Source: Chrysomallon squamiferum (taxonomy: Eukaryota; Mollusca; Gastropoda; Neomphalida; Peltospiridae). Taken from it: DNA of 64,000 nt. A program made the position numbers and the translations under genes. The stretch is taken from positions 33,594,022 to 33,658,021 of the forward strand of contig CM022665.1 of NCBI GenBank assembly GCA_012295275.1, written 5' to 3'. Position 1 is the first letter of the stretch. Every line of letters starts with the position of its first letter. Positions 10,201 to 56,914 of the stretch are shown here, piece after piece. Below the pieces are notes generated by a model, which saw nothing but the letters and a program-made list of their open reading frames with translations, made no database searches and had not been told where the DNA came from.

Positions 10201-10390
10201 CAAAACCATGAAACACTACTTGTTTTACTGTCAAAATGTCACCAAGGAAAGACATGCACTACGCAACACATTGGAGGAACTAAAAATTGAGTTCACGCTC
10301 CAAAACATCTTGGCACCAAACACGAAAGACAGAGAGTTAGTCCTCGCTGCAGTAACAACATACATTCTGAACACAAAACACAAACTTTAG
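7205..10390 (+). pseudogene. Retrotransposon ORF2 (endonuclease, RT, RNase H), broken
   Basis: The reading starts with LQWNAKGL (EEP endonuclease opening). It jumps near 7280-7315, probably through an internal deletion, to CDFNCHNALW and SAIDLTF, which are endonuclease active-site and C-terminal motifs. RT motifs follow: FLDIEKAFDMVW (motif A, about 8650-8685), GIPQGSVVSPTLFNIY (motif B) and FADD (motif C, ending near 8960), with a TGA immediately after FADD. RNase H is the longest open piece (9647-10390). It has a retained Asp in FLDSLNS and WLPAHVSIIGNELAD, but it reads MAKL where the family has the catalytic Glu of TAEL. The C-terminal block CSCGLSKTMKHYLFYC matches the usual Cys/His tail. 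Stops and frameshifts are scattered throughout. Confidence 0.85.
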
Positions 10391-16491: not shown

Positions 16492-17049
16492 AATTAATCA
16501 GTAATGGTAATGCTGATTTAAACAAAAATTGTGAAATTTGATCATGTGATACCAAATTCTTAACTTTTGCGAATAATGAAACATGACATGTGTTAGTAGA
16601 AATGAAGTGTACAATGTTAGCTGATATGTATTATATCTAGATACCTAAGATTTACTATTGATGTGTCATGACAGTTGTTTTACTTTTTATTTAACTGTTT
16701 TATCTTTGCTTTTGTAAGTGTTTTAAAGTAATCAGATTGTTCATTTTCTGAATTCTAATATTTTTGCCTCAGAGACAACTGGTTATTTTAAAATCCAGTG
16801 TTTACTTGTGTAAATTCAATGACAAATATCTAAATATGTTTTGTTTCTTAAATGTTTTTTTATCATTAAAATTCTTTCAATTGGAGTAGTGAAGATGAAT
16901 GAAATGTTTAATTTGGTGAATTATGTAAAACAATATTTTATCTCTAGATGATAATATATATCAATAAACTCTGAAGTGTGTACTGACATTTCTTGTAATG
17001 ATATTAACAAATGCTTTAAATTCAATGGTACAAATGTTTACTTCCTCTG

Positions 17050-17535
17050 GGTGGTTGTTGGGGAGGACGAGGTCGAGGACGATTCTGGCTAGGTCGTTAT
17101 GGACAGCGTTGTTATAATCCATGTTGGGTTAGTAATTCTGTGTGAAAAAATATTTTTAGTATTTAATTTTTATTTTTCTTCTTCAGGAAAGAACCCCTCC
17201 CCCCACTACTACACTGTAAACAATGTTCAAAATTTATTTTTGAGTAATAATTAAACATAATTTTTCATGGATTGTTTTTCTGAAAATAAAACAAATATAT
17301 AAAATAACATTTTTCATAATGTTTATTTAACCTGTTAAACAGTTTTCACTGGTTTTCGTAAAAAAAAACCTTGAAATATAAAAATCTTTTTGTTTATTTC
17401 AGAACAAGAGCTGTGGGCCTCTGATGCGCTATGCACTGTGGGCGACGTGGTGTGTGCGTGTGGTTGACAGACAGCTGGTTCCAAGGAAATCAGAACTGGC
17501 CCATTATGTACAGTTCTGACCAGAGTACAGATTAA
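17050..17535 (+). pseudogene. Array copy 0: truncated relic of the Arg/Gly-rich secreted protein gene
   Basis: Only the 3' third of the large exon remains (from about 17050), joined at its left to unrelated AT-rich DNA. Relative to the intact copies it lacks 18 nt (in frame) within the RGRGRG-encoding part. It keeps the end encoding RCYNPCW and the donor after Trp (17127). The last-exon equivalent is 17403-17535, 133 nt instead of 135. A 2-nt loss plus substitutions near 17430 destroy the frame and the Cys of the RCVP motif. Promoter, first exon and signal-peptide exon are absent, so it cannot make a secreted protein. Confidence 0.85.
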
Positions 17536-17910
17536 TTTGTTATTTAAACTTCATAATAAATCGTTTCAAAGGAATAGTCGATTGTTTGTTGTTAATGATA
17601 ACATAATTTAATTTTGAAAACTTGTTACCTGTTAGTTTGTAAACAATTTCACATAAACAAACACATTTTCACGTAAACACGTACACGCGTATGTTAAGTT
17701 TATACCCAGTTAACCAATAATTCAGCATACACTGCTGTTTTAATAATTATTTATGAGCTGTATTTACTGCGTTTAAAAAGATATCAAATTCTGACCTTAT
17801 GACTCCAGGGACATGTCAGCGAACGTAACAAAAGAAATTATAGAATCAATCCGATGTATCCGTATAGAAGGCCGACAGAGTGATTTGAAGAATAAAACGT
17901 TATTATTATT

Positions 17911-17952
<42 letters not shown>

Positions 17953-20710
17953 ATTATTGTTAATGATATAAATAACACCGAAACATTACCGTTCTTACAA
18001 TTTTGAAACGTTATTTACAAAAGTCTTGATCAATCAAATAAAAACGTGAGGATGATTACCATGTATATACTGTAGGATAATCAGGTTTTCGCTGAGGTAT
18101 AGGTTCTGGTGATCATCATATTTAAAAACGGAAGCTATTTTATACTTTTTTCATTTCATTTTATAGTCAGTACAAACTAATACAAAGGGTATTTGAGATG
18201 GAAAGCTAAACATTACGTGTTCTGCATAAAATTGTACGAAATAATTTGTTAGGTCATAATCTTTTTCGAGCATCCTTTGTGTGATGAATGTGAAATGCAT
18301 TTCGACATTTTATTTTCAATATATATTAATTACTTAGATGAATAAATTATGAAAAGTGGAGCTGGTGGTATCTTTGAATGTTGAACATTATTTGTGCTGT
18401 TATTCGCAGAGGACATAGTTTTTTTTTCACTCACAGTGAAAGAGATATTCAAACCAGTTTGATTGTCCGCTGTCACTCCAGTATGACTTGGAGATTGTGT
18501 GTAAATATAGAAAAGAAAACAAATTAAATCGATATATTTCGTAACATTTGAAGACTGTTAAAAGATTTACTATTTAATTAAAGATAATCATGTTGTGGAT
18601 ACATTACACATATCCTGTCACTTGCTGTAGTTTTCACAAAAGGCGGAGCTTTTAGGAAGTGGGGGATACTGTAATAGGACATGCACAAAAAGGGAGCTTT
18701 TTTTATGCATAAATATTTACTATACATGTAATTGTTTCTCTTTTCCTGAATATTTGTGATAAATCAATATCAAATAGTTTACATTACGAAAGTGAAGGGT
18801 GTGGTTTCATAAAAGGTCTGCACAAGAACATTTCGCATTTAAAATTTTGTAATAATGTGTTAAGAGTAAAGAAGGTATAAATAAATGATTTTTGTGTACG
18901 GTGAAGTGGGTAGATTTCCTGTAATTATTCACAGACAATGCAGAATTGTTAAATTTTCGTTGGTACCTACAAATAGTAATGAAATGAAATTTATTATTTT
19001 AAAAATATGTTGCAACATCATAGCTGCTGATAGAATAGTTTTTTGTATCCCAGTAACAGTAAATGAGTAATTGGGCTGTCCAGGCAAGCAATCAGTTAAA
19101 TAATACTAGATTTTCAGACGCTTGGCTGAATCAAAGTGAGAAGGATTTTTTGCCGTACTCAACAACAGTTAACAGACAGACGTCTACTGGGATTAAATGA
19201 CTCTTCGAGAGCATTGCTATACAGACATTTATCACAATTGTTTTTTTTTATGTAATTTATTTAGACTGCTTTTAGGTGGAAACATACAGAAGAGAATTAT
19301 CGAGATTAGCATGTCAGCACAACGGTTAACCATATAAACTGCAAGGTTGGAGAAAGCCAACCCAATTTTGTTGGACAATCGTAGATGTCATACTTGTAAT
19401 CGCTGATTAATTTCACTTTGTTCATGAATGGATTTTCTATATTATATGACCGTAAGAACGTTATATTTCGAAATATTATGTAATTAATGCCAGTATTTGC
19501 TAAAATATAGAGAATTGTTAAACAGCAGAAATCAAAATCTAGTATGAAAGTTGGCTGCATGTTTTTATAATGCATTTGAGCAAACAAATTATTTCTTTTA
19601 ATTAAGCTTCTCCATTAGCAATAAAAAGCAATAGAAATTATAATAAGAACATTACTTAATAATATACGGGACAGGTGGGGTAAAATTAGACTATTAATTT
19701 ATTTTTTTATGTATTTTATATTACCTGTATTGTATTTGTATGAATATATGTATTCAACGGTCTATGTCTTCTTTTTATTATTACTGTGCCGGATTTTCAG
19801 TACATACATTCACGAAAAGCCCTTTAGAATAAGAAGGATAAAACGCAACTAATAGTAATAATTATTATTGTTACAAAAAAACAATAACAGTAATATTAAT
19901 GAAGTAATAATGATAATAATGTCATCAGCTGTAAACAAAGTTAGTCTTGAATGATTTGAAATATGTTTTATTGTCTTGTCATCGTTAATATCAGTAGTAA
20001 TGGTGGTATTAGTAGTAGCATCTCATCATCTTTTCTTTCTTATGGCTTATTCGCCAGTGCATATTCATGTGTATTAAATATTCCCCAACCATAGTAATAA
20101 TAACAACAACAACAAGAGCAATAACAACATCAACAATGGTGATCACAATTCAGTAATTGCTGAAATATGTTACCTGGACTTAAACACTAAAACCTGCATG
20201 CTACTGTCTTAGAAACACCATTTATCTTTTCACAAATAGAATAAAGTTTGAAACTAAGTCTACGAAATGGTTACCCGATTTTAATTAGGAGCGGAAGATT
20301 TATATGCCTCAACACAGTTCAGTCCCATGCCGTTTTCGTTTCTACTTATCTTTGAATTTAAAACGTATCATCACATTTAACAAAACATAGGAAAATAAGA
20401 AGAAAAAATCGTGTACAGAGATTAACATGATACGGTGACAATTTAATCATGTTTTCTTTGACGTGAGTCGTATATTGTACATAAAAATGACAATGTTTCA
20501 GTGTCCAAACCAGGTTCAGCATGTTAAACGTGTCATTTCTCGTAGAAAAATCTTCATACGACCTCAGTCAGTCTCATCATCTGTCAGAATAACTAACGAA
20601 TTTACTGATAGTGTCAGTTCTGTTTTATATAGGTTATTTCATATTTTTATTGTTTTACTATTATCTTCTTTGTCACTATTTATTTATTTAATTTTGTTTT
20701 TAAGAACAAC

Positions 20711-20773
<63 letters not shown>

Positions 20774-21170
20774 AGAAATTAAAAAAATTATGCATTAGGT
20801 TCTAGGTTTAAATTGTTAATTAAAAAATAAAATAGTATCATCATCATTATTTTGGTCACTACTATTACTACTACTATTATTATTTTCAAGACCATTATAA
20901 ACGCTTTCGTTACTATCGTTATCCATTTCGGCATCATCAAAACGCATTCAAAATTAACACAGACTTCTGGGCACTAAATTTCTTTAAACGTTCCAATGTA
21001 AAACCAATTAAAATGACACGAACTATTGTATTTTTTATTTCTTACTTACACGAATATTCCGTCTACTTCTGATATACTGGACACCAGATATGACCTGTGA
21101 CCTGTCAGGAGATACAGACAACCGTTTCTGTAAGCTGACACTTTGCAAATTGCATCTAAATTGTCAAGAC
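17536..21170. other. Array spacer 1 (non-coding)
   Basis: The spacer holds a (TTG)n tract at about 17912-17952, a (CT)n tract at 20713-20771 and AT-rich sequence. Open frames seen here on both strands (for example 18885-19070 plus and 19306-19587 minus) are broken or shifted by indels in other copies, so they are not supported as genes. Confidence 0.6.
20713..20771. repeat. (CT)n microsatellite, spacer 1
   Basis: An uninterrupted CT run of about 59 bp. The equivalents in the next two units are about 84 bp and 79 bp. Confidence 0.9.
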
Positions 21171-21174
21171 GTAC

Positions 21175-21245
21175 TATATAAGGTAGACATCAAAACATAT
21201 TTGTCAAAGGAGTCTTTTTGGCTGTGTGTGTATCTGGTGAAACAG
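21175..21245 (+). promoter_or_regulatory. Array copy 1 core promoter and untranslated first exon
   Basis: A TATATAAG box at 21175-21182 lies about 30 bp before a presumed start. A short exon would end at 21245 in AAACAG followed by a perfect GTAAGT donor. A TTTGCAAATTGCA block about 30 bp upstream of the box resembles an octamer or C/EBP-type site. The next acceptor (TTTGCAG, ending 22766) precedes the ATG exon. The start site is inferred, not mapped. Confidence 0.5.
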
Positions 21246-21255
21246 GTAAGTGAGA

Positions 21256-21256
<1 letters not shown>

Positions 21257-21305
<49 letters not shown>

Positions 21306-21440
21306 TATACATACATATATATATAGAGAGAGATAGATTGATAGATAGATAGATAGGTAGATAGATATAGATATAGATAGATAAACAGATACATACATAC
21401 AGACAGACAGACAATGAGACAGGCAGACAGTCAGACATTC
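21257..21440. repeat. (CA)n followed by GATA/GACA microsatellite, copy 1 intron 1
   Basis: CA run at 21257-21304, then TA, GATA and GACA repeats. It lies only about 11 bp after the splice donor. Confidence 0.9.
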
Positions 21441-22780
21441 AGACAGACAATCACATACGTACATACACACGTAAAATACATACATTTTAATACATATACG
21501 TTGATACAGAAGCAATAGTTTTTACTTTAATTATAGCATTACGTCATCGAATCATGAAACTTAAGATCGCGCAGAAAATTTGTTGTCGATGATTTATTGT
21601 ACACGTCAAAATAATAACGGTACAACTATTAAAAGTCTAGACCTCAGGTCACTGTTTCGTTTAACTAGTATTTCATTGCTGCTCAACGTAAATGCGACTT
21701 TTTAGTTTAATTATATATTAATATACACATATACTTGTTGAAAGGGATATAGCCATTCATACGCAGACGCTCCAACACACATCTACAAGCATGCAAACGT
21801 ACACATATAATCTCCTCTGTGTGTGTGTGTAGGTGTGTGTGCGTGCGTGCGTGCGTGCGCGTGTGTGTGTGATTACACGCAAAAATGGTGCGATGTTGTG
21901 GTAAACTATATACAATTCTCCAAAGACTAGGTTAGGATTCAACTGCGTGGGTTATTCGCGTATGTGGATAAACACTAACAGAAATGAAATTATGTGTTAA
22001 GGTGCGAACGAAATTTTTCCTACAGTAGTGTGGTTTGAATTGTCAAAAATATGAATATCTATATCAGTGGAAATATATTTAAATACATGTATATCGTCAA
22101 TTTATTTCTAAAATGATTAGATTACAGAATTTTCCACATAGATAAAAATAAGTTAATATTTATTGATTTCCCAGTACAACACAATTTAATATTATTGGAT
22201 TTTTATTTTATTTTATTTTATTTTATTTGTTTGTTTCTTTTCAACTTTTTGAAAACGATGTTATTTGGTCTCAGTTTAATACCCTTTTTATGTTTTACTT
22301 TCTATGATAAATCCGGATTGTATTAAACATATAGTATAGAGCGAGCTCATACATTCAGACAAATTCCTAGTAGGCAAATGATAATTCATCTGACATGGAT
22401 AAATTTAAATGTTTTAGAAGGTAAATAAGTAAATGTCTTTTTCTAATACTTATAATTTAATACACAGACGAGATGTTGCCTCAGCAGCGGCGTCTCTGAG
22501 GTCTTGATTGGACTTCTGTGTCAGTGCGTTCCGAATACTTACTAACAGTTGATCCTAATCAGATATACATTTAACAACAGAATGCTCATTCCAAAACACA
22601 CACACACACATTCATTTTCTTGTCGTTTACAGAGTTCAAGAGTCCTATTAAATGCAATGTAAAGTCTGCTTTTATATGTATTGAACATCTCTGATTTGTA
22701 CATGCACAGTTCGTACATACATCTACAATGTGTTTGTTACAAATATGAAAATTCTATCTGTTTGCAGGATTATTACAAAC

Positions 22781-24291
22781 ATGAAAGTAGTTTTTTTCTT
22801 TTTTTCTTGCTGTATGTGTGGTTCTGTTAGACACCAATGTTCAAGGTAAGTAAGTAAAAATATAAAGCTATGTATCCTATTTTCTTGCAAACGAAATATG
22901 TAGTTACAAAGTCTTTTTCATATAATTGTGACGATGCCGTGAAATACTGCTTTATTTTCTGCGATGAAGAATTTGTATTTTATGGACTACGGCAGGGCCG
23001 GTATGTTTTTACGAATTTGTGAAAATGTTTAATTTTGTTTCTAGATAATTAAATGTAAATACTTACATCATCATCATTTGAACGCTTTTTAAATAATAAT
23101 AATAATAATAATACTTGTTCTAAGTGATGCGCTCACGTTGGCAATGTAGATTTAATATTTAATCGTAGGCAAAGTCAACATAACAAATTCTCTTTTTCTA
23201 ATCGATAAACGTATCCCTTTCCTTTGAAGATTCTGAATTCACAAACATTTCGTAACCAGTCGAAAATTAATTGATGTGTTCGTATTGTTTTTAAAATGTA
23301 GCGGGTTTCATTTTGAGAATATGATAACACGTAGTCAATGATTGGAATTTAATCAGTGTATTCTAACTACATGTATATAGTTAAAATGAAGTCTCCAGCA
23401 GAACTAACATATATTTGACATCAGTGAAAAGTGTACAGAAAATTATTACAGTATTTTAATTTTAGTTAAGCAAAATAAACTTTATATTCTTAGCTCAAGG
23501 TCGAGGTAAAACTACAGCAATGAGTCGGCGTGGTGGTAGCCGTGGTATTCTCGGACAAGGTGGTCTCCGGAGGAGAGGAGGTCGTAGAATGGGAGGCCGT
23601 CGGAGGGGCAATCGTGGTAGACGTGACTACTGGAATGATTGTTACATGGACGGAGGTCTTAGGTCTGGTGGTTTCGGACAGAACGGCTTTTGGTCAGGCG
23701 GCTTTGGACAAGGTGGTTTCGAACAAGGCAGCCTCGGACAAGGTGGTTTTCGACAAGGTGCTTTTGGACAAGGTGGCTTTGGACAAGGTGGTTTTTTGGG
23801 AGGACGAGGTGGACGAAGAGGACGAGGTCGAGGACGATTCTGGCTAGGTCGTTATGGACAGCGTTGTTATAATCCATGTTGGGTTAGTAATTCTGTGTGA
23901 AAAAATATTTTTAGTATTTAATTTTTATTTTTCTTCTTCAGGAAAGAACCCCTCCCCCCACTACTACACTGTAAACAATGTTCAAAATTTATTTTTGAGT
24001 AATAATTAAACATAATTTTTCATGGATTGTTTTTCTGAAAATAAAACAAATATATAAAATAACATTTTTCATAATGTTTATTTAACCTGTTAAACAGTTT
24101 TCACTGGTTTTCGTAAAAAAAAACCTTGAAATATAAAAATCTTTTGTTTATTTCAGAACAAGAGCTGTGGGCCTCTGATGCGTTGCGTACCTCGTGGGCG
24201 ACGTGGTGTGTGCGTGTGGTTGACAGACAGCTGGTTCAAAGGAAATCAGAACTGGCCCATTATGTACAGTTCTGACCAGAGTACAGATTAA
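22781..24291 (+). pseudogene. Array copy 1: Arg/Gly-rich secreted protein gene with signal-exon frameshift
   Basis: The exons mirror copies 2 and 3: 22781-22845 (signal), 23494-23882 (Arg/Gly and pentapeptide exon) and 24157-24291 (C-terminal exon), with a polyadenylation signal at 24311-24316. The signal exon has 65 nt instead of 64. Its T/C tract carries one extra T and a C-to-T change, which throws the signal peptide out of frame and gives an early stop after splicing. The large exon is identical in protein to copies 2 and 3. The last exon differs by one residue (WFKGNQ instead of WFQGNQ). Either this copy is newly dead, or a homopolymer sequencing error hides an intact gene. Translation from the internal MSRR methionine would lack secretion. 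Confidence 0.7.
22904..23000 (+). other. Possible cryptic Cys-containing exon in intron 2 (copy 1)
   Basis: 97 nt lie between an ATGTAG acceptor and a GGCCG/GTATGT donor. The frame is open and in phase with an intact signal exon, reading VTKSFSYNCDDAVKYC then FIFCDEEF. The donor phase does not join in frame to the known downstream exons, so if used it would be terminal, ending shortly after in YVFTNL. Copies 2 and 3 have it at 29669-29765 and 36432-36528. Confidence 0.25.
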
Positions 24292-24310
24292 TTTGTTATT
24301 TAAACTTCAT

Positions 24311-24316
24311 AATAAA
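24311..24316 (+). terminator. Polyadenylation signal, array copy 1
   Basis: AATAAA lies 20 bp after the last-exon stop codon. Confidence 0.6.
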
Positions 24317-24669
24317 TCGTTTCAAAGGAATAGTCGATTGTTTGTTGTTAATGATAACATAATTTAATTTTGAAAACTTGTTACCTGTTAGTTTGTAAAC
24401 AATTTCACATAAACAAACACATTTTCACGTAAACACGTACACGCGTATGTTAAGTTTATACCCAGTTAACCAATAATTCAGCATACACTGCTGTTTTAAT
24501 AGTTATTTATGAGCTGTATTTACTGCGTTTAAAAAGATATCAAATTCTGACCTTATGACTCCAGGGACATGTCAGCGAACGTAACAAAAGAAATTATAGA
24601 ATCAATCCGATGTATCCGTATAGAAGGCCGACAGAGTGATTTGAAGAATAAAACGTTATTATTATTATT

Positions 24670-24711
<42 letters not shown>

Positions 24712-27467
24712 ATTATTGTTAATGATATAAATAACACCGAAACATTACCGTTCTTACAATTTTGAAACGTTATTTACAAAAGTCTTGATCAATCAAATAA
24801 AAACGTGAGGATGATTACCATGTATATACTGTAGGATAATCAGGTTTTCGCTGAGGTATAGGTTCTGGTGATCATCATATTTAAAAACGGAAGCTATTTT
24901 ATACTTTTTTCATTTCATTTTATAGTCAGTACAAACTAATACAAAGGGTATTTGAGATGGAAAGCTAAACATTACGTGTTCTGCATAAAATTGTACGAAA
25001 TAATTTGTTAGGTCATAATCTTTTTCGAGCATCCTTTGTGTGATGAATGTGAAATGCATTTCGACATTTTATTTTCAATATATATTAATTACTTAGATGA
25101 ATAAATTATGAAAAGTGGAGCTGGTGGTATCTTTGAATGTTGAACATTATTTGTGCTGTTATTCGCAGAGGACATAGTTTTTTTTTCACTCACAGTGAAA
25201 GAGATATTCAAACCAGTTTGATTGTCCGCTGTCACTCCAGTATGACTTGGAGATTGTGTGTAAATATAGAAAAGAAAACAAATTAAATCGATATATTTCG
25301 TAACATTTGAAGACTGTTAAAAGATTTACTATTTAATTAAAGATAATCATGTTGTGGATACATTACACATATCCTGTCACTTGCTGTAGTTTTCACAAAA
25401 GGCGGAGCTTTTAGGAAGTGGGGGATACTGTAATAGGACATGCACAAAAAGGGAGCTTTTTTTATGCATAAATATTTACTATACATGTAATTGTTTCTCT
25501 TTTCCTGAATATTTGTGATAAATCAATATCAAATAGTTTACATTACGAAAGTGAAGGGTGTGGTTTCATAAAAGGTCTGCACAAGAACATTTCGCATTTA
25601 AAATTTTGTAATAATGTGTTAAGAGTAAAGAAGGTATAAATAAATGATTTTGTGTACGGTGAAGTGGGTAGATTTCCTGTAATTATTCACAGACAATGCA
25701 GAATTGTTAAATTTTCGTTGGTACCTACAAATAGTAATGAAATGAAATTTATTATTTTAAAAATATGTTGCAACATCATAGCTGCTGATAGAATAGTTTT
25801 TTTGTATCCCAGTAACAGTAAATGAGTAATTGGGCTGTCCAGGCAAGCAATCAGTTAAATAATACTAGATTTTCAGACGCTTGGCTGAATCAAAGTGAGA
25901 AGGATTTTTTTGCCGTACTCCAACAACAGTTAACAGACAGACGTCTACTGGGATTAAATGACTCTTCGAGAGCATTGCTATACAGACATTTATCACAATT
26001 GTTTTTTTTTTTATGTAATTTATTTAGACTGCTTTTAGGTGGAAACATACAGAAGAGAATTATCGAGATTGCGCATGTCAGCACACCGGTTAACCATATA
26101 AACTGCAAGGTTGGAGAAAGCCAACCCAATTTTGTTGGACAATCGTAGATGTCATACTTGTAATCGCTGATTAATTTCACTTTGTTCATGAATGGATTTT
26201 CTATATTATATGACCGTAAGAACGTTATATTTCGAAATATTATGTAATTAATGCCAGTATTTGCTAAAATATAGAGAATTGTTAAACAGCAGAAATCAAA
26301 ATCTAGTATGAAAGTTGGCTGCATGTTTTTATAATGCATTTGAGCAAACAAATTATTTCTTTTAATTAAGCTTCTCCATTAGCAATAAAAAGCAATAGAA
26401 ATTATAATAAGAACATTACTTAATAATATACGGGACAGGTGGGGTAAAATTAGACTATTAATTTATTTTTATGTATTTTATATTACCTGTATTGTATTTG
26501 TATGAATATATGTATTCAACGGTCTATGTCTTCTTTTTATTATTACTGTGCCGGATTTTCAGTACATACATTCACGAAAAGCCCTTTAGAATAAGAAGGA
26601 TAAAACGCAACTAATAGTAATAATTATTATTGTTACAAAAACAATAACAGTAATATTAATGAAGTAATAATGATAATAATGTCATCAGCTGTAAACAAAG
26701 TTAGTCTTGAATGATTTGAAATATGTTTTATTGTCTTGTCATCGTTAATATCAGTAGTAATGGTGGTATTAGTAGTAGCATCTCATCATCTTTTCTTTCT
26801 TATGGCTTATTCGCCAGTGCATATTCATGTGTATTAAATATTCCCCAACCATAGTAATAATAACAACAACAACAAGAGCAATAACAACATCAACAATGGT
26901 GATCACAATTCAGTAATTGCTGAAATATGTTACCTGGACTTAAACACTAAAACCTGCATGCTACTGTCTTAGAAACACCATTTATCTTTTCACAAATAGA
27001 ATAAAGTTTGAAACTAAGTCTACGAAATGGTTACCCGATTTTAATTAGGAGCGGAAGATTTATATGCCTCAACACAGTTCAGTCCCATGCCGTTTTCGTT
27101 TCTACTTATCTTTGAATTTAAAACGTATCATCACATTTAACAAAACATAGGAAAATAAGAAGAAAAAATCGTGTACAGAGATTAACATGATACGGTGACA
27201 ATTTAATCATGTTTTCTTTGACGTGAGTCGTATATTGTACATAAAAATGACAATGTTTCAGTGTCCAAACCAGGTTCAGCATGTTAAACGTGTCATTTCT
27301 CGTAGAAAAATCTTCATACGACCTCAGTCAGTCTCATCATCTGTCAGAATAACTAACGAATTTACTGATAGTGTCAGTTCTGTTTTATATAGGTTATTTC
27401 ATATTTTTATTGTTTTACTATTATCTTCTTTGTCACTATTTATTTATTTAATTTTGTTTTTAAGAAC

Positions 27468-27556
<89 letters not shown>

Positions 27557-27950
27557 AGAAATTAAAAAATTATGCATTAGGTTCTAGGTTTAAATTGTTA
27601 ATTAAAAAATAAAATAGTATCATCATCATTATTTTGGTCACTACTATTACTACTACTATTATTATTTTCAAGACCATTATAAACGCTTTCGTTACTATCG
27701 TTATCCATTTCGGCATCATCAAAACGCATTCAAAATTAACACAGACTTCTGGGCACTAAATTTCTTTAAACGTTCCAATGTAAAACCAATTAAAATGACA
27801 CGAACTATTGTATTTTTTATTTCTTACTTACACGAATATTCCGTCTACTTCTGATATACTGGACACCAGATATGACCTGTGACCTGTCAGGAGATACAGA
27901 CAACCGTTTCTGTAAGCTGACACTTTGCAAATTGCATCTAAATTGTCAAG
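24317..27950. other. Array spacer 2 (non-coding)
   Basis: Near-identical to spacer 1. It contains (TTG)n at about 24671-24711 and (CT)n at 27471-27554. A minus-strand open frame at 25890-26351 is Ile/Phe/Tyr-rich, and its end shifts with a poly-T run in other units, so it is not called a gene. Confidence 0.6.
27471..27554. repeat. (CT)n microsatellite, spacer 2
   Basis: About 84 bp of uninterrupted CT, the longest of the three array copies. Confidence 0.9.
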
Positions 27951-27956
27951 ACGTAC

Positions 27957-28027
27957 TATATAAGGTAGACATCAAAACATATTTGTCAAAGGAGTCTTTT
28001 TGGCTGTGTGTGTATCTGGTGAAACAG
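27957..28027 (+). promoter_or_regulatory. Array copy 2 core promoter and untranslated first exon
   Basis: TATATAAG lies at 27957-27964 and the first-exon donor GTAAGT starts at 28028. The arrangement is identical to copy 1. A (CA)n tract of about 40 bp follows at 28039-28078. Confidence 0.5.
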
Positions 28028-28037
28028 GTAAGTGAGA

Positions 28038-28079
<42 letters not shown>

Positions 28080-29549
28080 TATACATACATATATATATAG
28101 AGAGAGATAGATTGATAGATAGATAGATAGGTAGATAGATATAGATATAGATAGATAAACAGATACATACATACAGACAGACAGACAGTGAGACAGGCAG
28201 ACAGTCAGACATTCAGACAGACAATCACATACGTACATACACACGTAAAATACATACATTTTAATACATATACGTTGATACAGAAGCAATAGTTTTTACT
28301 TTAATTATAGCATTACGTCATCGAATCATGAAACTTAAGATCGCGCAGAAAATTTGTTGTCGATGATTTATTGTACACGTCAAAATAATAACGGTACAAC
28401 TATTAAAAGTCTAGACCTCAGGTCACTGTTTCGTTTAACTAGTATTTCATTGCTGCTCAACGTAAATGCGACTTTTTAGTTTAATTATATATTAATATAC
28501 ACATATACTTGTTGAAAGGGATATAGCCATTCATACGCAGACGCTCCAACACACATCTACAAGCATGCAAACGTACACATATAATCTCCTCTGTGTGTGT
28601 GTGTAGGTGTGTGTGCGTGCGTGCGTGCGTGCGCGTGTGTGTGTGATTACACGCAAAAATGGTGCGATGTTGTGGTAAACTATATACAATTCTCCAAAGA
28701 CTAGGTTAGGATTCAACTGCGTGGGTTATTCGCGTATGTGGATAAACACTAACAGAAATGAAATTATGTGTTAAGGTGCGAACGAAATTTTTCCTACAGT
28801 AGTGTGGTTTGAATTGTCAAAAATATGAATATCTATATCAGTGGAAATATATTTAAATACATGTATATCGTCAATTTATTTCTAAAATGATTAGATTACA
28901 GAATTTTCCACATAGATAAAAATAAGTTAATATTTATTGATTTCCCAGTACAACACAATTTAATATTATTGGATTTTTATTTTATTTTATTTTATTTGTT
29001 TGTTTCTTTTCAACTTTTTGAAAACGATGTTATTTGGTCTCAGTTTAATACCCTTTTTATGTTTTACTTTCTATGATAAATCCGGATTGTATTAAACATA
29101 TAGTATAGAGCGAGCTCATACATTCAGACAAATTCCTAGTAGGCAAATGATAATTCATCTGACATGGATAAATTTAAATGTTTTAGAAGGTAAATAAGTA
29201 AATGTCTTTTTCTAATACTTATAATTTAATACACAGACGAGATGTTGCCTCAGCAGCGGCGTCTCTGAGGTCTTGATTGGACTTTTGTGTCAGTGCGTTC
29301 CGAATACTTACTAACAGTTGATCCTAATCAGATATACATTTAACAACAGAATGCTCATTCCAAAACACACACACACACATTCATTTTCTTGTCGTTTACA
29401 GAGTTCAAGAGTCCTATTAAATGCAATGTAAAGTCTGCTTTTATATGTATTGAACATCTCTGATTTGTACATGCACAGTTCGTACATACATCTACAATGT
29501 GTTTGTTACAAATATGAAAATTCTATCTGTTTGCAGGATTATTACAAAC

Positions 29550-31051
29550 ATGAAAGTAGTTTTTCTTCTTTTTCTTGCTGTATGTGTGGTTCTGTTAGAC
29601 ACCAATGTTCAAGGTAAGTAAGAAATATAAAGCTATGTATCCTATTTTCTTGCAAACGAAATATGTAGTTACAAAGTCTTTTTCATATAATTGTGACGAT
29701 GCCGTGAAATACTGCTTTATTTTCTGCGATGAAGAATTTGTATTTTATGGACTACGGCAGGGCCGGTATGTTTTTACGAATTTGTGAAAATGTTTAATTT
29801 TGTTTCTAGATAATTAAATGTAAATACTTACATCATCATTTGAACGCTTTAAATAATAATAATAATAATAATACTTGTTCTAAGTGATGCGCTCACGTTG
29901 GCAATGTAGATTTAATATTTAATCGTAGGCAAAGTCAACATAACAAATTCTCTTTTTCTAATCGATAAACGTATCCCTTTCCTTTGAAGATTCTGAATTC
30001 ACAAACATTTCGTAACCAGTCGAAAATTAATTGATGTGTTCGTATTGTTTTAAAATGTAGCGGGTTTCATTTTGAGAATATGATAACACGTAGTCAATGA
30101 TTGGAATTTAATCAGTGTATTCTAACTACATGTATATAGTTAAAATGAAGTCTCCAGCAGAACTAACATATATTTGACATCAGTGAAAAGTGTACAGAAA
30201 ATTATTACAGTATTTTAATTTTAGTTAAGCAAAATAAACTTTATATTCTTAGCTCAAGGTCGAGGTAAAACTACAGCAATGAGTCGGCGTGGTGGTAGCC
30301 GTGGTATTCTCGGACAAGGTGGTCTCCGGAGGAGAGGAGGTCGTAGAATGGGAGGCCGTCGGAGGGGCAATCGTGGTAGACGTGACTACTGGAATGATTG
30401 TTACATGGACGGAGGTCTTAGGTCTGGTGGTTTCGGACAGAACGGCTTTTGGTCAGGCGGCTTTGGACAAGGTGGTTTCGAACAAGGCAGCCTCGGACAA
30501 GGTGGTTTTCGACAAGGTGCTTTTGGACAAGGTGGCTTTGGACAAGGTGGTTTTTTGGGAGGACGAGGTGGACGAAGAGGACGAGGTCGAGGACGATTCT
30601 GGCTAGGTCGTTATGGACAGCGTTGTTATAATCCATGTTGGGTTAGTAATTCTGTGTGAAAAAATATTTTTAGTATTTAATTTTTATTTTTCTTCTTCAG
30701 GAAAGAACCCCTCCCCCCACTACTACACTGTAAACAATGTTCAAAATTTATTTTTGAGTAATAATTAAACATAATTTTTCATGGATTGTTTTTCTGAAAA
30801 TAAAACAAATATATAAAATAACATTTTTCATAATGTTTATTTAACCTGTTAAACAGTTTTCACTGGTTTTCGTAAAAAAAAACCTTGAAATATAAAAATC
30901 TTTTTGTTTATTTCAGAACAAGAGCTGTGGGCCTCTGATGCGTTGCGTACCTCGTGGGCGACGTGGTGTGTGCGTGTGGTTGACAGACAGCTGGTTCCAA
31001 GGAAATCAGAACTGGCCCATTATGTACAGTTCTGACCAGAGTACAGATTAA
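29550..31051 (+). CDS. Array copy 2: secreted Arg/Gly-rich, pentapeptide-repeat, six-cysteine protein (intact)
   Basis: Coding exons are 29550-29613, 30253-30641 and 30917-31051, with phases 1 and 0, for 195 residues. Residues 1-22 form a classic signal peptide (MKVVFLLFLAVCVVLL core, likely cut near NVQA). Residues 31-70 are Arg/Gly-rich (RRRGGRRMGGRRRGNRGRR). Residues 80-124 are nine pentapeptides of GGFxQ type. An RGG-like stretch follows. Six mature cysteines lie at about 71, 146, 150, 155, 161 and 170, the last five spaced 3-4-5-8. The protein is strongly basic and secreted. If intron 3 is retained, translation instead ends five residues after Trp151 (VSNSV). The family is not recognised. 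A structural (mucus, egg-case, cuticle, adhesive) or antimicrobial role would both fit basic Gly-rich Cys-bonded proteins, but this is speculation. Confidence 0.75.
29669..29765 (+). other. Possible cryptic Cys-containing exon in intron 2 (copy 2)
   Basis: Same 97-nt open, acceptor-in-phase segment as in copy 1 (NCDDAVKYCFIFC core). Here the signal exon is intact, so use as a terminal exon would give a short secreted peptide of about 60 residues. There is no direct support. Confidence 0.25.
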
Positions 31052-31070
31052 TTTGTTATTTAAACTTCAT

Positions 31071-31076
31071 AATAAA
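31071..31076 (+). terminator. Polyadenylation signal, array copy 2
   Basis: AATAAA lies 20 bp after the stop codon of the last exon. Confidence 0.6.
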
Positions 31077-31429
31077 TCGTTTCAAAGGAATAGTCGATTG
31101 TTTGTTGTTAATGATAACATAATTTAATTTTGAAAACTTGTTACCTGTTAGTTTGTAAACAATTTCACATAAACAAACACATTTTCACGTAAACACGTAC
31201 ACGCGTATGTTAAGTTTATACCCAGTTAACCAATAATTCAGCATACACTGCTGTTTTAATAGTTATTTATGAGCTGTATTTACTGCGTTTAAAAAGATAT
31301 CAAATTCTGACCTTATGACTCCAGGGACATGTCAGCGAACGTAACAAAAGAAATTATAGAATCAATCCGATGTATCCGTATAGAAGGCCGACAGAGTGAT
31401 TTGAAGAATAAAACGTTATTATTATTATT

Positions 31430-31477
<48 letters not shown>

Positions 31478-34238
31478 ATTATTGTTAATGATATAAATAA
31501 CACCGAAACATTACCGTTCTTACAATTTTGAAACGTTATTTACAAAAGTCTTGATCAATCAAATAAAAACGTGAGGATGATTACCATGTATATACTGTAG
31601 GATAATCAGGTTTTCGCTGAGGTATAGGTTCTGGTGATCATCATATTTAAAAACGGAAGCTATTTTATACTTTTTTCATTTCATTTTATAGTCAGTACAA
31701 ACTAATACAAAGGGTATTTGAGATGGAAAGCTAAACATTACGTGTTCTGCATAAAATTGTACGAAATAATTTGTTAGGTCATAATCTTTTTCGAGCATCC
31801 TTTGTGTGATGAATGTGAAATGCATTTCGACATTTTATTTTCAATATATATTAATTACTTAGATGAATAAATTATGAAAAGTGGAGCTGGTGGTATCTTT
31901 GAATGTTGAACATTATTTGTGCTGTTATTCGCAGAGGACATAGTTTTTTTTTCACTCACAGTGAAAGAGATATTCAAACCAGTTTGATTGTCCGCTGTCA
32001 CTCCAGTATGACTTGGAGATTGTGTGTAAATATAGAAAAGAAAACAAATTAAATCGATATATTTCGTAACATTTGAAGACTGTTAAAAGATTTACTATTT
32101 AATTAAAGATAATCATGTTGTGGATACATTACACATATCCTGTCACTTGCTGTAGTTTTCACAAAAGGCGGAGCTTTTAGGAAGTGGGGGATACTGTAAT
32201 AGGACATGCACAAAAAGGGAGCTTTTTTTTATGCATAAATATTTACTATACATGTAATTGTTTCTCTTTTCCTGAATATTTGTGATAAATCAATATCAAA
32301 TAGTTTACATTACGAAAGTGAAGGGTGTGGTTTCATAAAAGGTCTGCACAAGAACATTTCGCATTTAAAATTTTGTAATAATGTGTTAAGAGTAAAGAAG
32401 GTATAAATAAATGATTTTGTGTACGGTGAAGTGGGTAGATTTCCTGTAATTATTCACAGACAATGCAGAATTGTTAAATTTTCGTTGGTACCTACAAATA
32501 GTAATGAAATGAAATTTATTATTTTAAAAATATGTTGCAACATCATAGCTGCTGCTGATAGAATAGTTTTTTGTATCCCAGTAACAGTAAATGAGTAATT
32601 GGGCTGTCCAGGCAAGCAATCAGTTAAATAATACTAGATTTTCAGACGCTTGGCTGAATCAAAGTGAGAAGGATTTTTTTGCCGTACTCCAACAACAGTT
32701 AACAGACAGACGTCTACTGGGATTAAATGACTCTTCGAGAGCATTGCTATACAGACATTTATCACAATTGTTTTTTTTTTATGTAATTTATTTAGACTGC
32801 TTTTAGGTGGAAACATACAGAAGAGAATTATCGAGATTGCGCATGTCAGCACACCGGTTAACCATATAAACTGCAAGGTTGGAGAAAGCCAACCCAATTT
32901 TGTTGGACAATCGTAGATGTCATACTTGTAATCGCTGATTAATTTCACTTTGTTCATGAATGGATTTTCTATATTATATGACCGTAAGAACGTTATATTT
33001 CGAAATATTATGTAATTAATGCCAGTATTTGCTAAAATATAGAGAATTGTTAAACAGCAGAAATCAAAATCTAGTATGAAAGTTGGCTGCATGTTTTTAT
33101 AATGCATTTGAGCAAACAAATTATTTCTTTTAATTAAGCTTCTCCATTAGCAATAAAAAGCAATAGAAATTATAATAAGAACATTACTTAATAATATACG
33201 GGACAGGTGGGGTAAAATTAGACTATTAATTTATTTTTATGTATTTTATATTACCTGTATTGTATTTGTATGAATATATGTATTCAACGGTCTATGTCTT
33301 CTTTTTATTATTACTGTGCCGGATTTTCAGTACATACATTCACGAAAAGCCCTTTAGAATAAGAAGGATAAAACGCAACTAATAGTAATAATTATTATTG
33401 TTACAAAAACAATAACAGTAATATTAATGAAGTAATAATGATAATAATGTCATCAGCTGTAAACAAAGTTAGTCTTGAATGATTTGAAATATGTTTTATT
33501 GTCTTGTCATCGTTAATATCAGTAGTAATGGTGGTATTAGTAGTAGCATCTCATCATCTTTTCTTTCTTATGGCTTATTCGCCAGTGCATATTCATGTGT
33601 ATTAAATATTCCCCAACCATAGTAATAATAACAACAACAACAAGAGCAATAACAACATCAACAATGGTGATCACAATTCAGTAATTGCTGAAATATGTTA
33701 CCTGGACTTAAACACTAAAACCTGCATGCTACTGTCTTAGAAACACCATTTATCTTTTCACAAATAGAATAAAGTTTGAAACTAAGTCTACGAAATGGTT
33801 ACCCGATTTTAATTAGGAGCGGAAGATTTATATGCCTCAACACAGTTCAGTCCCATGCCGTTTTCGTTTCTACTTATCTTTGAATTTAAAACGTATCATC
33901 ACATTTAACAAAACATAGGAAAATAAGAAGAAAAAATCGTGTACAGAGATTAACATGATACGGTGACAATTTAATCATGTTTTCTTTGACGTGAGTCGTA
34001 TATTGTACATAAAAATGACAATGTTTCAGTGTCCAAACCAGGTTCAGCATGTTAAACGTGTCATTTCTCGTAGAAAAATCTTCATACGACCTCAGTCAGT
34101 CTCATCATCTGTCAGAATAACTAACGAATTTACTGATAGTGTCAGTTCTGTTTTATATAGGTTATTTCATATTTTTATTGTTTTACTATTATCTTCTTTG
34201 TCACTATTTATTTATTTAATTTTGTTTTTAAGAACAAC

Positions 34239-34321
<83 letters not shown>

Positions 34322-34725
34322 AGAAATTAAAAATTATGCATTAGGTTCTAGGTTTAAATTGTTAATTAAAAAATAAAATAGTATCATCATCATTATTTTG
34401 GTCACTACTATTACTACTACTATTATTATTTTCAAGACCATTATAAACGCTTTCGTTACTATCGTTATCCATTTCGGCATCATCAAAACGCATTCAAAAT
34501 TAACACAGACTTCTGGGCACTAAATTTCTTTAAACGTTCCAATGTAAAACCAATTAAAATGACACGAACTATTGTATTTTTTATTTCTTACTTACACGAA
34601 TATTCCGTCTACTTCTGATATACTGGACACCAGATATGACCTGTGACCTGTCAGGAGATACAGACAACCGTTTCTGTAAGCTGACACTTTGCAAATTGCA
34701 TCTAAATTGTCAAGACGTACTATAT
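31077..34725. other. Array spacer 3 (non-coding)
   Basis: Third copy of the spacer, with (TTG)n at about 31431-31477 and (CT)n at 34241-34319. The same broken open frames occur as in the other spacers (for example 32634-33119 minus). No gene is supported. Confidence 0.6.
34241..34319. repeat. (CT)n microsatellite, spacer 3
   Basis: About 79 bp of uninterrupted CT. Confidence 0.9.
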
Positions 34726-34730
34726 AAGGT

Positions 34731-34791
34731 AGACATCAAAACATATTTGTCAAAGGAGTCTTTTTGGCTGTGTGTGTATCTGGTGAAACAG
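34731..34791 (+). promoter_or_regulatory. Array copy 3 core promoter and untranslated first exon
   Basis: TATATAAG at 34731-34738 and donor GTAAGT from 34792. A (CA)n tract of about 44 bp follows at 34803-34846. The arrangement is the same as in copies 1 and 2. Confidence 0.5.
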
Positions 34792-34801
34792 GTAAGTGAG
34801 A

Positions 34802-34847
<46 letters not shown>

Positions 34848-35360
34848 TATACATACATATATATATAGAGAGAGATAGATTGATAGATAGATAGATAGGT
34901 AGATAGATATAGATATAGATAGATAAAACAGATACATACATACAGACAGACAGACAGTGAGACAGGCAGACAGTCAGACATTCAGACAGACAATCACATA
35001 CGTACATACACACGTAAAATACATACATTTTAATACATATACGTTGATACAGAAGCAATAGTTTTTACTTTAATTATAGCATTACGTCATCGAATCATGA
35101 AACTTAAGATCGCGCAGAAAATTTGTTGTCGATGATTTATTGTACACGTCAAAATAATAACGGTACAACTATTAAAAGTCTAGACCTCAGGTCACTGTTT
35201 CGTTTAACTAGTATTTCATTGCTGCTCAACGTAAATGCGACTTTTTAGTTTAATTATATATTAATATACACATATACTTGTTGAAAGGGATATAGCCATT
35301 CATACGCAGACGCTCCAACACACATCTACAAGCATGCAAACGTACACATATAATCTCCTC

Positions 35361-35391
<31 letters not shown>

Positions 35392-36312
35392 GTGTGTGTG
35401 TGATTACACGCAAAAATGGTGCGATGTTGTGGTAAACTATATACAATTCTCCAAAGACTAGGTTAGGATTCAACTGCGTGGGTTATTCGCGTATGTGGAT
35501 AAACACTAACAGAAATGAAATTATGTGTTAAGGTGCGAACGAAATTTTTCCTACAGTAGTGTGGTTTGAATTGTCAAAAATATGAATATCTATATCAGTG
35601 GAAATATATTTAAATACATGTATATCGTCAATTTATTTCTAAAATGATTAGATTACAGAATTTTCCACATAGATAAAAATAAGTTAATATTTATTGATTT
35701 CCCAGTACAACACAATTTAATATTATTGGATTTTTATTTTATTTTATTTTATTTGTTTGTTTCTTTTCAACTTTTTGAAAACGATGTTATTTGGTCTCAG
35801 TTTAATACCCTTTTTATGTTTTACTTTCTATGATAAATCCGGATTGTATTAAACATATAGTATAGAGCGAGCTCATACATTCAGACAAATTCCTAGTAGG
35901 CAAATGATAATTCATCTGACATGGATAAATTTAAATGTTTTAGAAGGTAAATAAGTAAATGTCTTTTTCTAATACTTATAATTTAATACACAGACGAGAT
36001 GTTGCCTCAGCAGCGGCGTCTCTGAGGTCTTGATTGGACTTTTGTGTCAGTGCGTTCCGAATACTTACTAACAGTTGATCCTAATCAGATATACATTTAA
36101 CAACAGAATGCTCATTCCAAAACACACACACACACACACACATTCATTTTCTTGTCGTTTACAGAGTTCAAGAGTCCTATTAAATGCAATGTAAAGTCTG
36201 CTTTTATATGTATTGAACATCTCTGATTTGTACATGCACAGTTCGTACATACATCTACAATGTGTTTGTTACAAATATGAAAATTCTATCTGTTTGCAGG
36301 ATTATTACAAAC

Positions 36313-37816
36313 ATGAAAGTAGTTTTTCTTCTTTTTCTTGCTGTATGTGTGGTTCTGTTAGACACCAATGTTCAAGGTAAGTAAGAAATATAAAGCTATG
36401 TATCCTATTTTCTTGCAAACGAAATATGTAGTTACAAAGTCTTTTTCATATAATTGTGACGATGCCGTGAAATACTGCTTTATTTTCTGCGATGAAGAAT
36501 TTGTATTTTATGGACTACGGCAGGGCCGGTATGTTTTTACGAATTTGTGAAAATGTTTAATTTTGTTTCTAGATAATTAAATGTAAATACTTACATCATC
36601 ATTTGAACGCTTTAAATAATAATAATAATAATAATACTTGTTCTAAGTGATGCGCTCACGTTGGCAATGTAGATTTAATATTTAATCGTAGGCAAAGTCA
36701 ACATAACAAATTCTCTTTTTCTAATCGATAAACGTATCCCTTTCCTTTGAAGATTCTGAATTCACAAACATTTCGTAACCAGTCGAAAATTAATTGATGT
36801 GTTCGTATTGTTTTTAAAATGTAGCGGGTTTCATTTTGAGAATATGATAACACGTAGTCAATGATTGGAATTTAATCAGTGTATTCTAACTACATGTATA
36901 TAGTTAAAATGAAGTCTCCAGCAGAACTAACATATATTTGACATCAGTGAAAAGTGTACAGAAAATTATTACAGTATTTTAATTTTAGTTAAGCAAAATA
37001 AACTTTATATTCTTAGCTCAAGGTCGAGGTAAAACTACAGCAATGAGTCGGCGTGGTGGTAGCCGTGGTATTCTCGGACAAGGTGGTCTCCGGAGGAGAG
37101 GAGGTCGTAGAATGGGAGGCCGTCGGAGGGGCAATCGTGGTAGACGTGACTACTGGAATGATTGTTACATGGACGGAGGTCTTAGGTCTGGTGGTTTCGG
37201 ACAGAACGGCTTTTGGTCAGGCGGCTTTGGACAAGGTGGTTTCGAACAAGGCAGCCTCGGACAAGGTGGTTTTCGACAAGGTGCTTTTGGACAAGGTGGC
37301 TTTGGACAAGGTGGTTTTTTGGGAGGACGAGGTGGACGAAGAGGACGAGGTCGAGGACGATTCTGGCTAGGTCGTTATGGACAGCGTTGTTATAATCCAT
37401 GTTGGGTTAGTAATTCTGTGTGAAAAAATATTTTTAGTATTTAATTTTTATTTTTCTTCTTCAGGAAAGAACCCCTCCCCCCACTACTACACTGTAAACA
37501 ATGTTCAAAATTTATTTTTGAGTAATAATTAAACATAATTTTTCATGGATTGTTTTTCTGAAAATAAAACAAATATATAAAATAACATTTTTCATAATGT
37601 TTATTTAACCTGTTAAACAGTTTTCACTGGTTTTCGTAAAAAAAAAACCTTGAAATATAAAAATCTTTTTGTTTATTTCAGAACAAGAGCTGTGGGCCTC
37701 TGATGCGTTGCGTACCTCGTGGGCGACGTGGTGTGTGCGTGTGGTTGACAGACAGCTGGTTCCAAGGAAATCAGAACTGGCCCATTATGTACAGTTCTGA
37801 CCAGAGTACAGATTAA
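36313..37816 (+). CDS. Array copy 3: secreted Arg/Gly-rich, pentapeptide-repeat, six-cysteine protein (intact)
   Basis: Coding exons are 36313-36376 (signal peptide), 37017-37405 (Arg/Gly-rich region, nine GGFxQ pentapeptides, RCYNPCW end) and 37682-37816 (NKSCGPLMRCVPRGRRGVC, then a Trp/Asn/Asp-rich tail ending SSDQSTD). Phases agree, giving 195 residues identical to copy 2. All splice sites match copy 2: acceptors TATTCTTAG and TTTATTTCAG, donors GTAAGT and GTTAGT. This is the rightmost copy. Its downstream flank leaves the near-identical tract about 40 bp after the AATAAA at 37836-37841, so its 3' control region differs from copies 1 and 2. Its upstream promoter is the same, so co-expression is expected. 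The family is unknown. Confidence 0.75.
36432..36528 (+). other. Possible cryptic Cys-containing exon in intron 2 (copy 3)
   Basis: Identical to the segment at 29669-29765. Its preservation says little, because the whole unit is near-identical. Confidence 0.25.
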
Positions 37817-37835
37817 TTTGTTATTTAAACTTCAT

Positions 37836-37841
37836 AATAAA
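37836..37841 (+). terminator. Polyadenylation signal, array copy 3
   Basis: AATAAA lies 20 bp after the stop codon, within the last conserved stretch of the array. Confidence 0.6.
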
Positions 37842-37880
37842 TCGTTTCAAAGGAATAGTCGATTGTTTGTTGTTAATGAT

Positions 37881-38893
37881 AATATTAATTAATTCTGAAA
37901 ACTTGTTAACTTTTAGTCTGTGTTTTGTAGTAAACAGTATGGTTTACCGAAACACATATACATAGATTCACGCTCGCACATAAATGTAGCTTTACTATAT
38001 ACCCAGCTAAAACTCAAAATTCTAGTATGGCTTTGAAATGAGCAAACCAAACACGGATCTGCACCTTTCAGTCGTTACAGATAAGACAGCTAAATTCCTT
38101 TCAGCGCTATAATCAACTAATAATAAAAAAAACATCTGCTAGCTTAACTATCGTGGAAATTGCCACATTAATTATGAGCAACAGTTACAAAACATGAACT
38201 GTCGCACTATATGCGGCAACCTCTTCAGACTGAGGATGATGTGATTAAAACTGCTAATATGAAAAAAGTACACAGTTAGTTTAACTGTTGTACAAATGAG
38301 CAAAATGCAGACAGATTAGACCGTAATTAGCTATTATAATTAGGAATTACACATTATTGTGAACTACAACAGCAAGTAATAATAATTATGACAAAAACAA
38401 CAACAAGAATAATAATAATAATAATAATATTTAGTTGTATTAAAATATTTTTATCATGTAAAAGTTGTGGAACAGTACTGAGAAAAGGGATAGTCTATTA
38501 TAGTAAAAGGTGTTATACTTAGCATAACCAAGTTCCTGTTAAGTATTATCATTACTTTGCTCGCAGTCACTTTTATTCAACTCGTGTTACATTTTTTTAC
38601 ATGACATTTTTCTTTTTAATTTATCTGTTATTCAGTAACTCTTTGTTTCAAAAAGGCGGCTCGTATCGCATAACGCACCTAAATCAAAACATGACACAAC
38701 AGTTTGAATAATGATACGGCTATTGATTAGAGGCTAACAACAATGCAAACACCATACTATACGTTTGTCCCTTTTAGACGTTCTGTTTTTACCTCTTACG
38801 ACGTCTTTCTGTACTATACATTTGTTTTATCATACAGTAAATAAACAGAGTGGGAACTATGGGTTCTTGCTGGGGGTCGCTATGCATTAACTG
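37881..38893. other. Array right flank: diverged spacer remnant, then non-coding DNA
   Basis: From about 37,880 the sequence still resembles the array spacer in places (an AACTTGTTA block, a TTTAGTCTGTG block and TATACCCAGCTAA against TATACCCAGTTAA) but with many differences, and the similarity fades by about 38,020. The rest shows only an (AAT)n tract near 38,408-38,430. No gene is seen. Confidence 0.5.
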
Positions 38894-39204: not shown

Positions 39205-50244
<11,040 letters not shown>

Positions 50245-55882: not shown

Positions 55883-55921
<39 letters not shown>

Positions 55922-56036
55922 TATAATGTTTCCATCTAGAAATTTATGAATTAATTCTCCTGTTAGGTGCATAATCAGATGGGAAATAAAAGACTATAGT
56001 AAGGAAAGGTACATTAAAAGGTATTCCGTAATTCTT

Positions 56037-56068
<32 letters not shown>

Positions 56069-56654: not shown

Positions 56655-56914
56655 CTAGGCATCGAACATGATAAAAAAAACTCTTTTATTTTGTGACTGG
56701 GCTGGATTTTTTTATTAGGCATGTTGTAGATCATCAGACTATCATTTGTCACTTAGAATAAGTCAAGTCATTTTGTTCTTAACACTGTTTATTCTGAAAT
56801 AAAAGATATGGAAGAAAAAATAATAAATAAATAAATAAAGATCAAAGTTATGAATAAATATTTTCCAGACTTATCCTTTTCCACATTTTTTTTGTTTTGT
56901 TTGTTTTTGTTTAA

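Follow-up and report, generated by a model that had tools for sequence, protein, structure and literature searches.

Which gene is repeated in tandem at this locus of Chrysomallon squamiferum, how did its copies arise and what might its product do? The locus lies in a stretch of 64,000 nucleotides (contig CM022665.1; hereafter, the window), and all coordinates below are positions in this window, to which the copy counts are also limited. A first-pass annotation had proposed that a gene for a basic, secreted, repeat-bearing protein of unrecognised family was recently amplified in tandem; this is supported by our analysis, with secretion regarded as probable. The reading that we place first, with a confidence that is about evenly balanced, is that of a tandem array, either very young or homogenised not long ago, of a lineage-restricted gastropod gene, the product of which would be an extracellular structural (matrix) protein.

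Structure of the tandem array

Self-comparison of the window revealed one large direct repeat, made of three head-to-tail units and a leading fragment (about 17046–37882). The arrangement described at first pass is thus borne out, from nearly the same edges (17050–37880). Three self-matches compose the array: 17063–31156 against 23818–37921, at an offset of one unit (99.07% identity over 14,152 positions), 17063–24396 against 30577–37921, at an offset of two units (98.58% over 7,382 positions), and 17063–17640 against 37341–37921 (97.4% over 581 positions). These pairs are the only self-matches of more than 150 bases in the window at E up to 1e-10, and the duplication is far beyond chance. All units are on the forward strand: unit 1 spans 17063–23817 (6755 bp), unit 2 spans 23818–30576 (6759 bp) and unit 3 spans 30577–37340 (6764 bp), followed by a partial fourth unit (37341–37921) which corresponds to the 3′ end of the last gene copy (copy C, see below). 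The left edge is approximate, the DNA alignment starting at 17063 and protein-level homology at about 17047. At the right edge, no substitution separates the partial unit from unit 3 up to 37882 (there is one 1-base insertion at 37638), and 7 differences are found in the 39 bases on to 37921; counted from the AATAAA of copy C, the match to copy B is perfect for 47 bases, after which come the 39 bases with these 7 differences and the end of the alignment.

Between units 2 and 3 there are 4 substitutions in 6741 aligned bases (6737 matches, gap columns apart), 3 of them located at microsatellite edges. Counted in the same way, units 1 and 3 differ by 12 substitutions, 5 of which cluster in the leading fragment's last exon, and units 1 and 2 by 15. 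Such near-identity of units 2 and 3, together with the presence of homopolymer indels among the unit-specific differences (several of them are of this type), is what would be expected from an assembly artefact in which one or two real copies had been multiplied, or haplotypes joined in tandem. We consider this explanation very unlikely. A CT microsatellite has 29.5, 42.5 and 39.5 copies in units 1, 2 and 3, respectively, and a CA microsatellite has 24, 20 and 22; these length differences from unit to unit indicate separate physical copies. Furthermore, the units also differ by substitutions, the fragment carries changes of its own and the unique flanks occur once in the window.

The gene, its copies and its product

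The motif TATATAAG, a short untranslated exon 1 with a GTAAGT donor, an ATG-bearing exon 2, a long exon 3, an exon 4 and an AATAAA signal were found at matching positions in 3 out of 3 full copies, so that the TATA box and untranslated exon initially attributed to each full unit do recur in all of them; all splice sites are predicted from sequence. The three introns are 1508–1522, 639–648 and 274–276 bases long, and retention of the third would stop the frame five residues beyond the exon 3 boundary. Copy A (21175–24316) has its TATA box at 21175, exon 1 to 21245, exon 2 at 22768–22845, exon 3 at 23494–23882, exon 4 at 24157–24291 (to the stop codon) and AATAAA at 24311. The corresponding features of copy B (27957–31076) are at 27957, to 28027, 29537–29613 (ATG at 29550), 30253–30641, 30917–31051 and 31071, and those of copy C (34721–37841) at 34721, to 34791, 36300–36376 (ATG at 36313), 37017–37405, 37682–37816 and 37836. 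The leading fragment (17046–17560), also on the forward strand, lacks all sequence upstream of the end of exon 3; it retains the 3′ end of that exon, the following intron, exon 4 from 17403 and AATAAA at 17555.

Only copies B and C, i.e. 2 of the 3 full copies, are intact and encode a 195-residue precursor, predicted to be identical in both. Exon 2 is 78 bases long in copy A versus 77 in the two others, and a T/C tract of copy A (22791–22806) contains one extra base and two substitutions; a plain homopolymer read error would not account for both substitutions. As a result, the frame opened by the ATG of copy A stops in exon 3, whereas the frame compatible with exon 3 is interrupted by two stop codons within exon 2, downstream of which there is no ATG. 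Copy A as assembled is therefore predicted to be unable to make the secreted precursor, and the initial proposal of a signal peptide in each full unit was overstated, since it is kept in two of the three. The fragment is frameshifted too: its exon 4 displays, at 17429–17437, five substitutions and a 2-base deletion within 11 alignment columns. Apart from these positions, exon 4 of the fragment agrees with copies B and C, and the changes at 17429–17437 look like one local event.

How good is the evidence that exon 3 is coding? Among first-order Markov sequences, runs of 144 or more codons without a stop occurred in 9 of 500 when unit 2 served as the model and in 46 of 2000 when the 435-base exon 3 region did. 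Stop-free frames longer than that of exon 3 were also noted on the minus strand, at 25890–26378 in unit 2 (162 codons) and 32634–33146 in unit 3 (170 codons); small indels cut the frame at the same position in unit 1 to 102 codons, and a Pfam search with the 162- and 170-codon frames gave a sole match, far below cut-off. GC content by codon position and codon usage provide better evidence of coding than frame length. GC content at the three codon positions of exon 3 is 0.66/0.68/0.28 (0.49/0.37/0.30 for a neighbouring ankyrin-repeat/SOCS-box gene), and the proposed frame has a synonymous-codon score of 0.1, with 423 codons of that same gene as reference, against −21 to −87 for the five remaining frames. 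Comparison of nine in-register pentads of the repeat region revealed 59, 46 and 78 differences at codon positions 1, 2 and 3, respectively (180 comparisons each), a mild excess at silent positions.

These data bear on whether the array is simply decaying, i.e. whether the gene has ceased to be expressed or needed, with its copies becoming pseudogenes. The frameshifts in copy A and in the fragment go in that direction; on the other side, the codon pattern of exon 3 argues for coding at least in the past, and copies B and C are intact with the same predicted protein (a weak test given so few differences between units). On balance, general decay appears quite unlikely to us.

The N-terminus of the precursor is hydrophobic, with a Kyte-Doolittle maximum over 19 residues of 2.26, versus 0.33 for the mature part. 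From this we infer a signal peptide in copies B and C, with cleavage after VQA. The predicted mature protein has 173 residues (19.0 kDa, pI 11.7, charge +23.7), among which are 49 Gly, 29 Arg, 6 Cys, 5 Tyr, 4 Pro, 2 Lys and no His; the proposed basic, Arg/Gly-rich nature of the product is thereby confirmed. Two details of the first description need qualification. The nine pentapeptides are indeed in register, but 5 are strict GGFxQ, 2 are variants ending in Q and 2 are neither. Likewise, the mature protein does possess six cysteines (positions 49, 124, 128, 133, 139 and 148), but five of them form the C-terminal module (mature residues 124–148) and the sixth is far upstream, at position 49.

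Origin, age and surroundings of the array

The start of the array falls within exon 3 and its end shortly after the polyadenylation signal of copy C, so that the sequence at every junction comes from the 3′ end of the gene itself. The locus may once have lain between two older copies of this 3′ end, diverged from each other, and unequal crossing-over between them could have generated the units; such a process would account for the start in exon 3, the end past the polyadenylation signal and the fading of the right edge into diverged homology. Judging from the substitution counts, units 2 and 3 are probably the youngest pair, or the most recently converted one. If neutral substitution proceeds at around 2e-9 per site and year, one non-microsatellite substitution in 6.7 kb would amount to some tens of thousands of years without conversion.

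Identity extending into the spacers had been interpreted as a sign of selection for dosage. Extra copies could raise output. However, exons, introns and spacers are all similarly poor in substitutions; the identity therefore points to recency or gene conversion, either of which suffices, and does not support dosage selection. That one of the three full copies lacks a signal peptide, being apparently broken already, also points mildly away from such selection.

Rfam and tRNA scans of the whole window detected nothing. Outside the array, remains of a non-LTR retroelement are found on the forward strand (7284–10390; A-rich strand, broken frames), with matches to an endonuclease (PF14529, 2.4e-14) and a reverse transcriptase (PF00078, 1e-16). 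Exons of a leucine-rich-repeat gene (LRR_6, LRR_1) lie at 45555–47854 on the same strand, perhaps on to about 49150. The ankyrin-repeat/SOCS-box gene is on the minus strand (53317–56685). Its 269-residue exon was compared with 7 of the 23 proteins found: it is 75% identical to a protein of Gigantopelta aegis, 73% to another protein (which shares 84% identity with that of Gigantopelta), 54% to one of Haliotis and 46.6–48.3% to one bivalve and three other gastropod proteins. By its sequence, this gene is nearer to Gigantopelta than to abalone.

Relatives and likely role of the product

Queries with exon 3, the full model or its C-terminal part gave no Pfam family (E up to 10), and searches of a protein database gave no homologue: of 7615 candidates for the full 195-residue model none had an E value of 10 or less, and residues 138–195 had zero candidates with three common words. 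The first-pass view that the protein belongs to no recognised family is consistent with these results. The database holds at least one Gigantopelta protein, so that the absence of a match carries some weight, limited by the requirement of these searches for common five-residue words, which distant relatives may escape. One sequence match in the PDB, to a designed repeat protein, was rejected because it sums six weak stretches of which none is significant singly. A pentapeptide-repeat protein of the bacterial type (in the Pfam sense) was rejected in the absence of any Pfam family, and an intracellular RGG-type RNA-binding protein was set aside on the basis of the predicted signal peptide and the cysteines. 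A literature text search for GGFGQ-type motifs and CYNPCW gave, among the matches listed, GGFGQ once per paper; in PMC8618194, it is a single peptide of an insect chorion protein, with no repeat. The passages searched in two vent-snail genome papers (PMC7142155, PMC7736800; their supplements were outside the search) name no such gene.

Composition is best read as that of a secreted matrix protein. The Gly-rich GGFxQ stretch would form a disordered, flexible, gel-forming linker, the Arg-rich blocks would serve to bind polyanions, be they acidic matrix proteins, sulphated sugars or mineral surfaces, and the cysteines to form cross-links; the product would probably be located in mantle and shell, mucus or another secreted material. 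These roles are assigned by analogy with the KRMPs of pearl oysters, which, according to the passages available in PMC3120837, are thought to join acid-soluble proteins to the framework via basic and Gly/Tyr-rich regions. Several observations count against this reading: one of the three full copies appears to be broken; the length of the open frame is, alone, weak evidence of coding; exon 4 has a codon-usage score of −11.5 over 39 codons; and a strongly cationic protein with a Cys module also suits an antimicrobial role.

This last point introduces the main rival, namely a secreted cationic antimicrobial of chimeric type (Gly-rich region plus Cys module), whose extra copies would raise the dose of an immune effector. 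The pI of 11.7, the charge of +23.7 and the 6 Cys are in its favour, and a precedent exists in crustacean hyastatin, in which a Gly-rich region is joined to a six-cysteine domain; in the parts of PMC2866484 that describe them, hyastatin and the type II crustins are all cationic, secreted and built of a Gly-rich region joined to a Cys-rich one. However, these are proteins of another phylum, and the product here matches neither of them. There is no C-terminal WAP (four-disulphide core) domain (Pfam, E up to 10) and 6 Cys in all, versus eight in that domain of crustins, nor is there the short proline-arginine region that links the two parts of hyastatin (4 Pro in 173 residues), and the C-terminal cysteines are five, not six. 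In addition, the predicted 19.0 kDa exceeds the sizes given in the same passages for crustins (about 7–14 kDa) and hyastatin (11.7 kDa) (PMC2866484). Among the roles listed at first pass, a structural secretion fits best by composition; the antimicrobial one keeps a place as an unlikely, though not negligible, alternative.

If the gene model is right, the array represents an orphan secreted molluscan protein caught in copy-number change, with two intact copies, one freshly broken and one older fragment, and such arrays show the expansion and decay of repetitive secretome genes. A bolder version, which we regard as a long shot, is that of a family found only in neomphaline snails of vents and the deep sea and amplifying now, whose polycationic, Cys-cross-linked, silk-like product would build a lineage-specific armour, mineral interface or symbiont-facing mucus. 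Were it true, one would be looking at a secretome gene whose copy number began to change no more than tens of thousands of years ago, one copy being already frameshifted.

How does the proposed matrix protein compare with known ones? Perlinhibin, a Cys-, His- and Arg-rich miniprotein of abalone nacre according to a title cited in PMC6003135, resembles it in being from a gastropod and rich in Arg and Cys; compared by description, Perlinhibin presumably has no Gly repeat, and the product here has 0 His in 173 residues. The shematrins of pearl oysters, again compared by description and with sequence details as we assume them to be, differ by the strong Arg content and the Cys module of the present protein. 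They are, like it, Gly-rich, secreted and members of a duplicated family (in the relevant passages of PMC4897951). The KRMPs have a signal peptide, as is predicted here, and share with it a basic region, a Gly-rich region, duplication and lineage restriction (PMC3120837 and PMC4897951, in the parts concerned); on a comparison by description, the basic residue here is Arg rather than Lys (29 versus 2), the repeats are of Gly-Phe-Gln rather than Gly/Tyr and there is a C-terminal Cys module. Identity as a KRMP, which supposes Lys-rich and Gly/Tyr-rich regions, was rejected with 2 Lys and 5 Tyr in 173 residues. Silk-like structural proteins have been delimited, in the section of PMC4944945 that deals with them, by a signal peptide, at least 25% Gly in 80 residues after signal removal, the absence of a transmembrane domain and a place in a biological material. 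At least 25% Gly is present in 88 of the 94 80-residue windows of the mature part (maximum 40%), i.e. the glycine level of that rule, and the product further shares with this group the absence of a second hydrophobic segment (Kyte-Doolittle maximum of 0.33 in the mature part) and the absence of a sequence relative (same section of PMC4944945), while a signal peptide is plausible in copies B and C and absent in copy A; the product departs from this group by its strong Arg content and C-terminal Cys module, and is known from sequence alone. Molluscan mantle secretomes are rich in lineage-restricted, repetitive low-complexity proteins, and the KRMP and shematrin families expand by duplication, as stated in the part of PMC4897951 devoted to them. 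The sequence is new (no relative in the libraries searched) and its kind is ordinary for these secretomes, of which duplicating lineage-restricted repetitive proteins are, on that same account (PMC4897951), already typical, so that the general lesson is one they had taught before.

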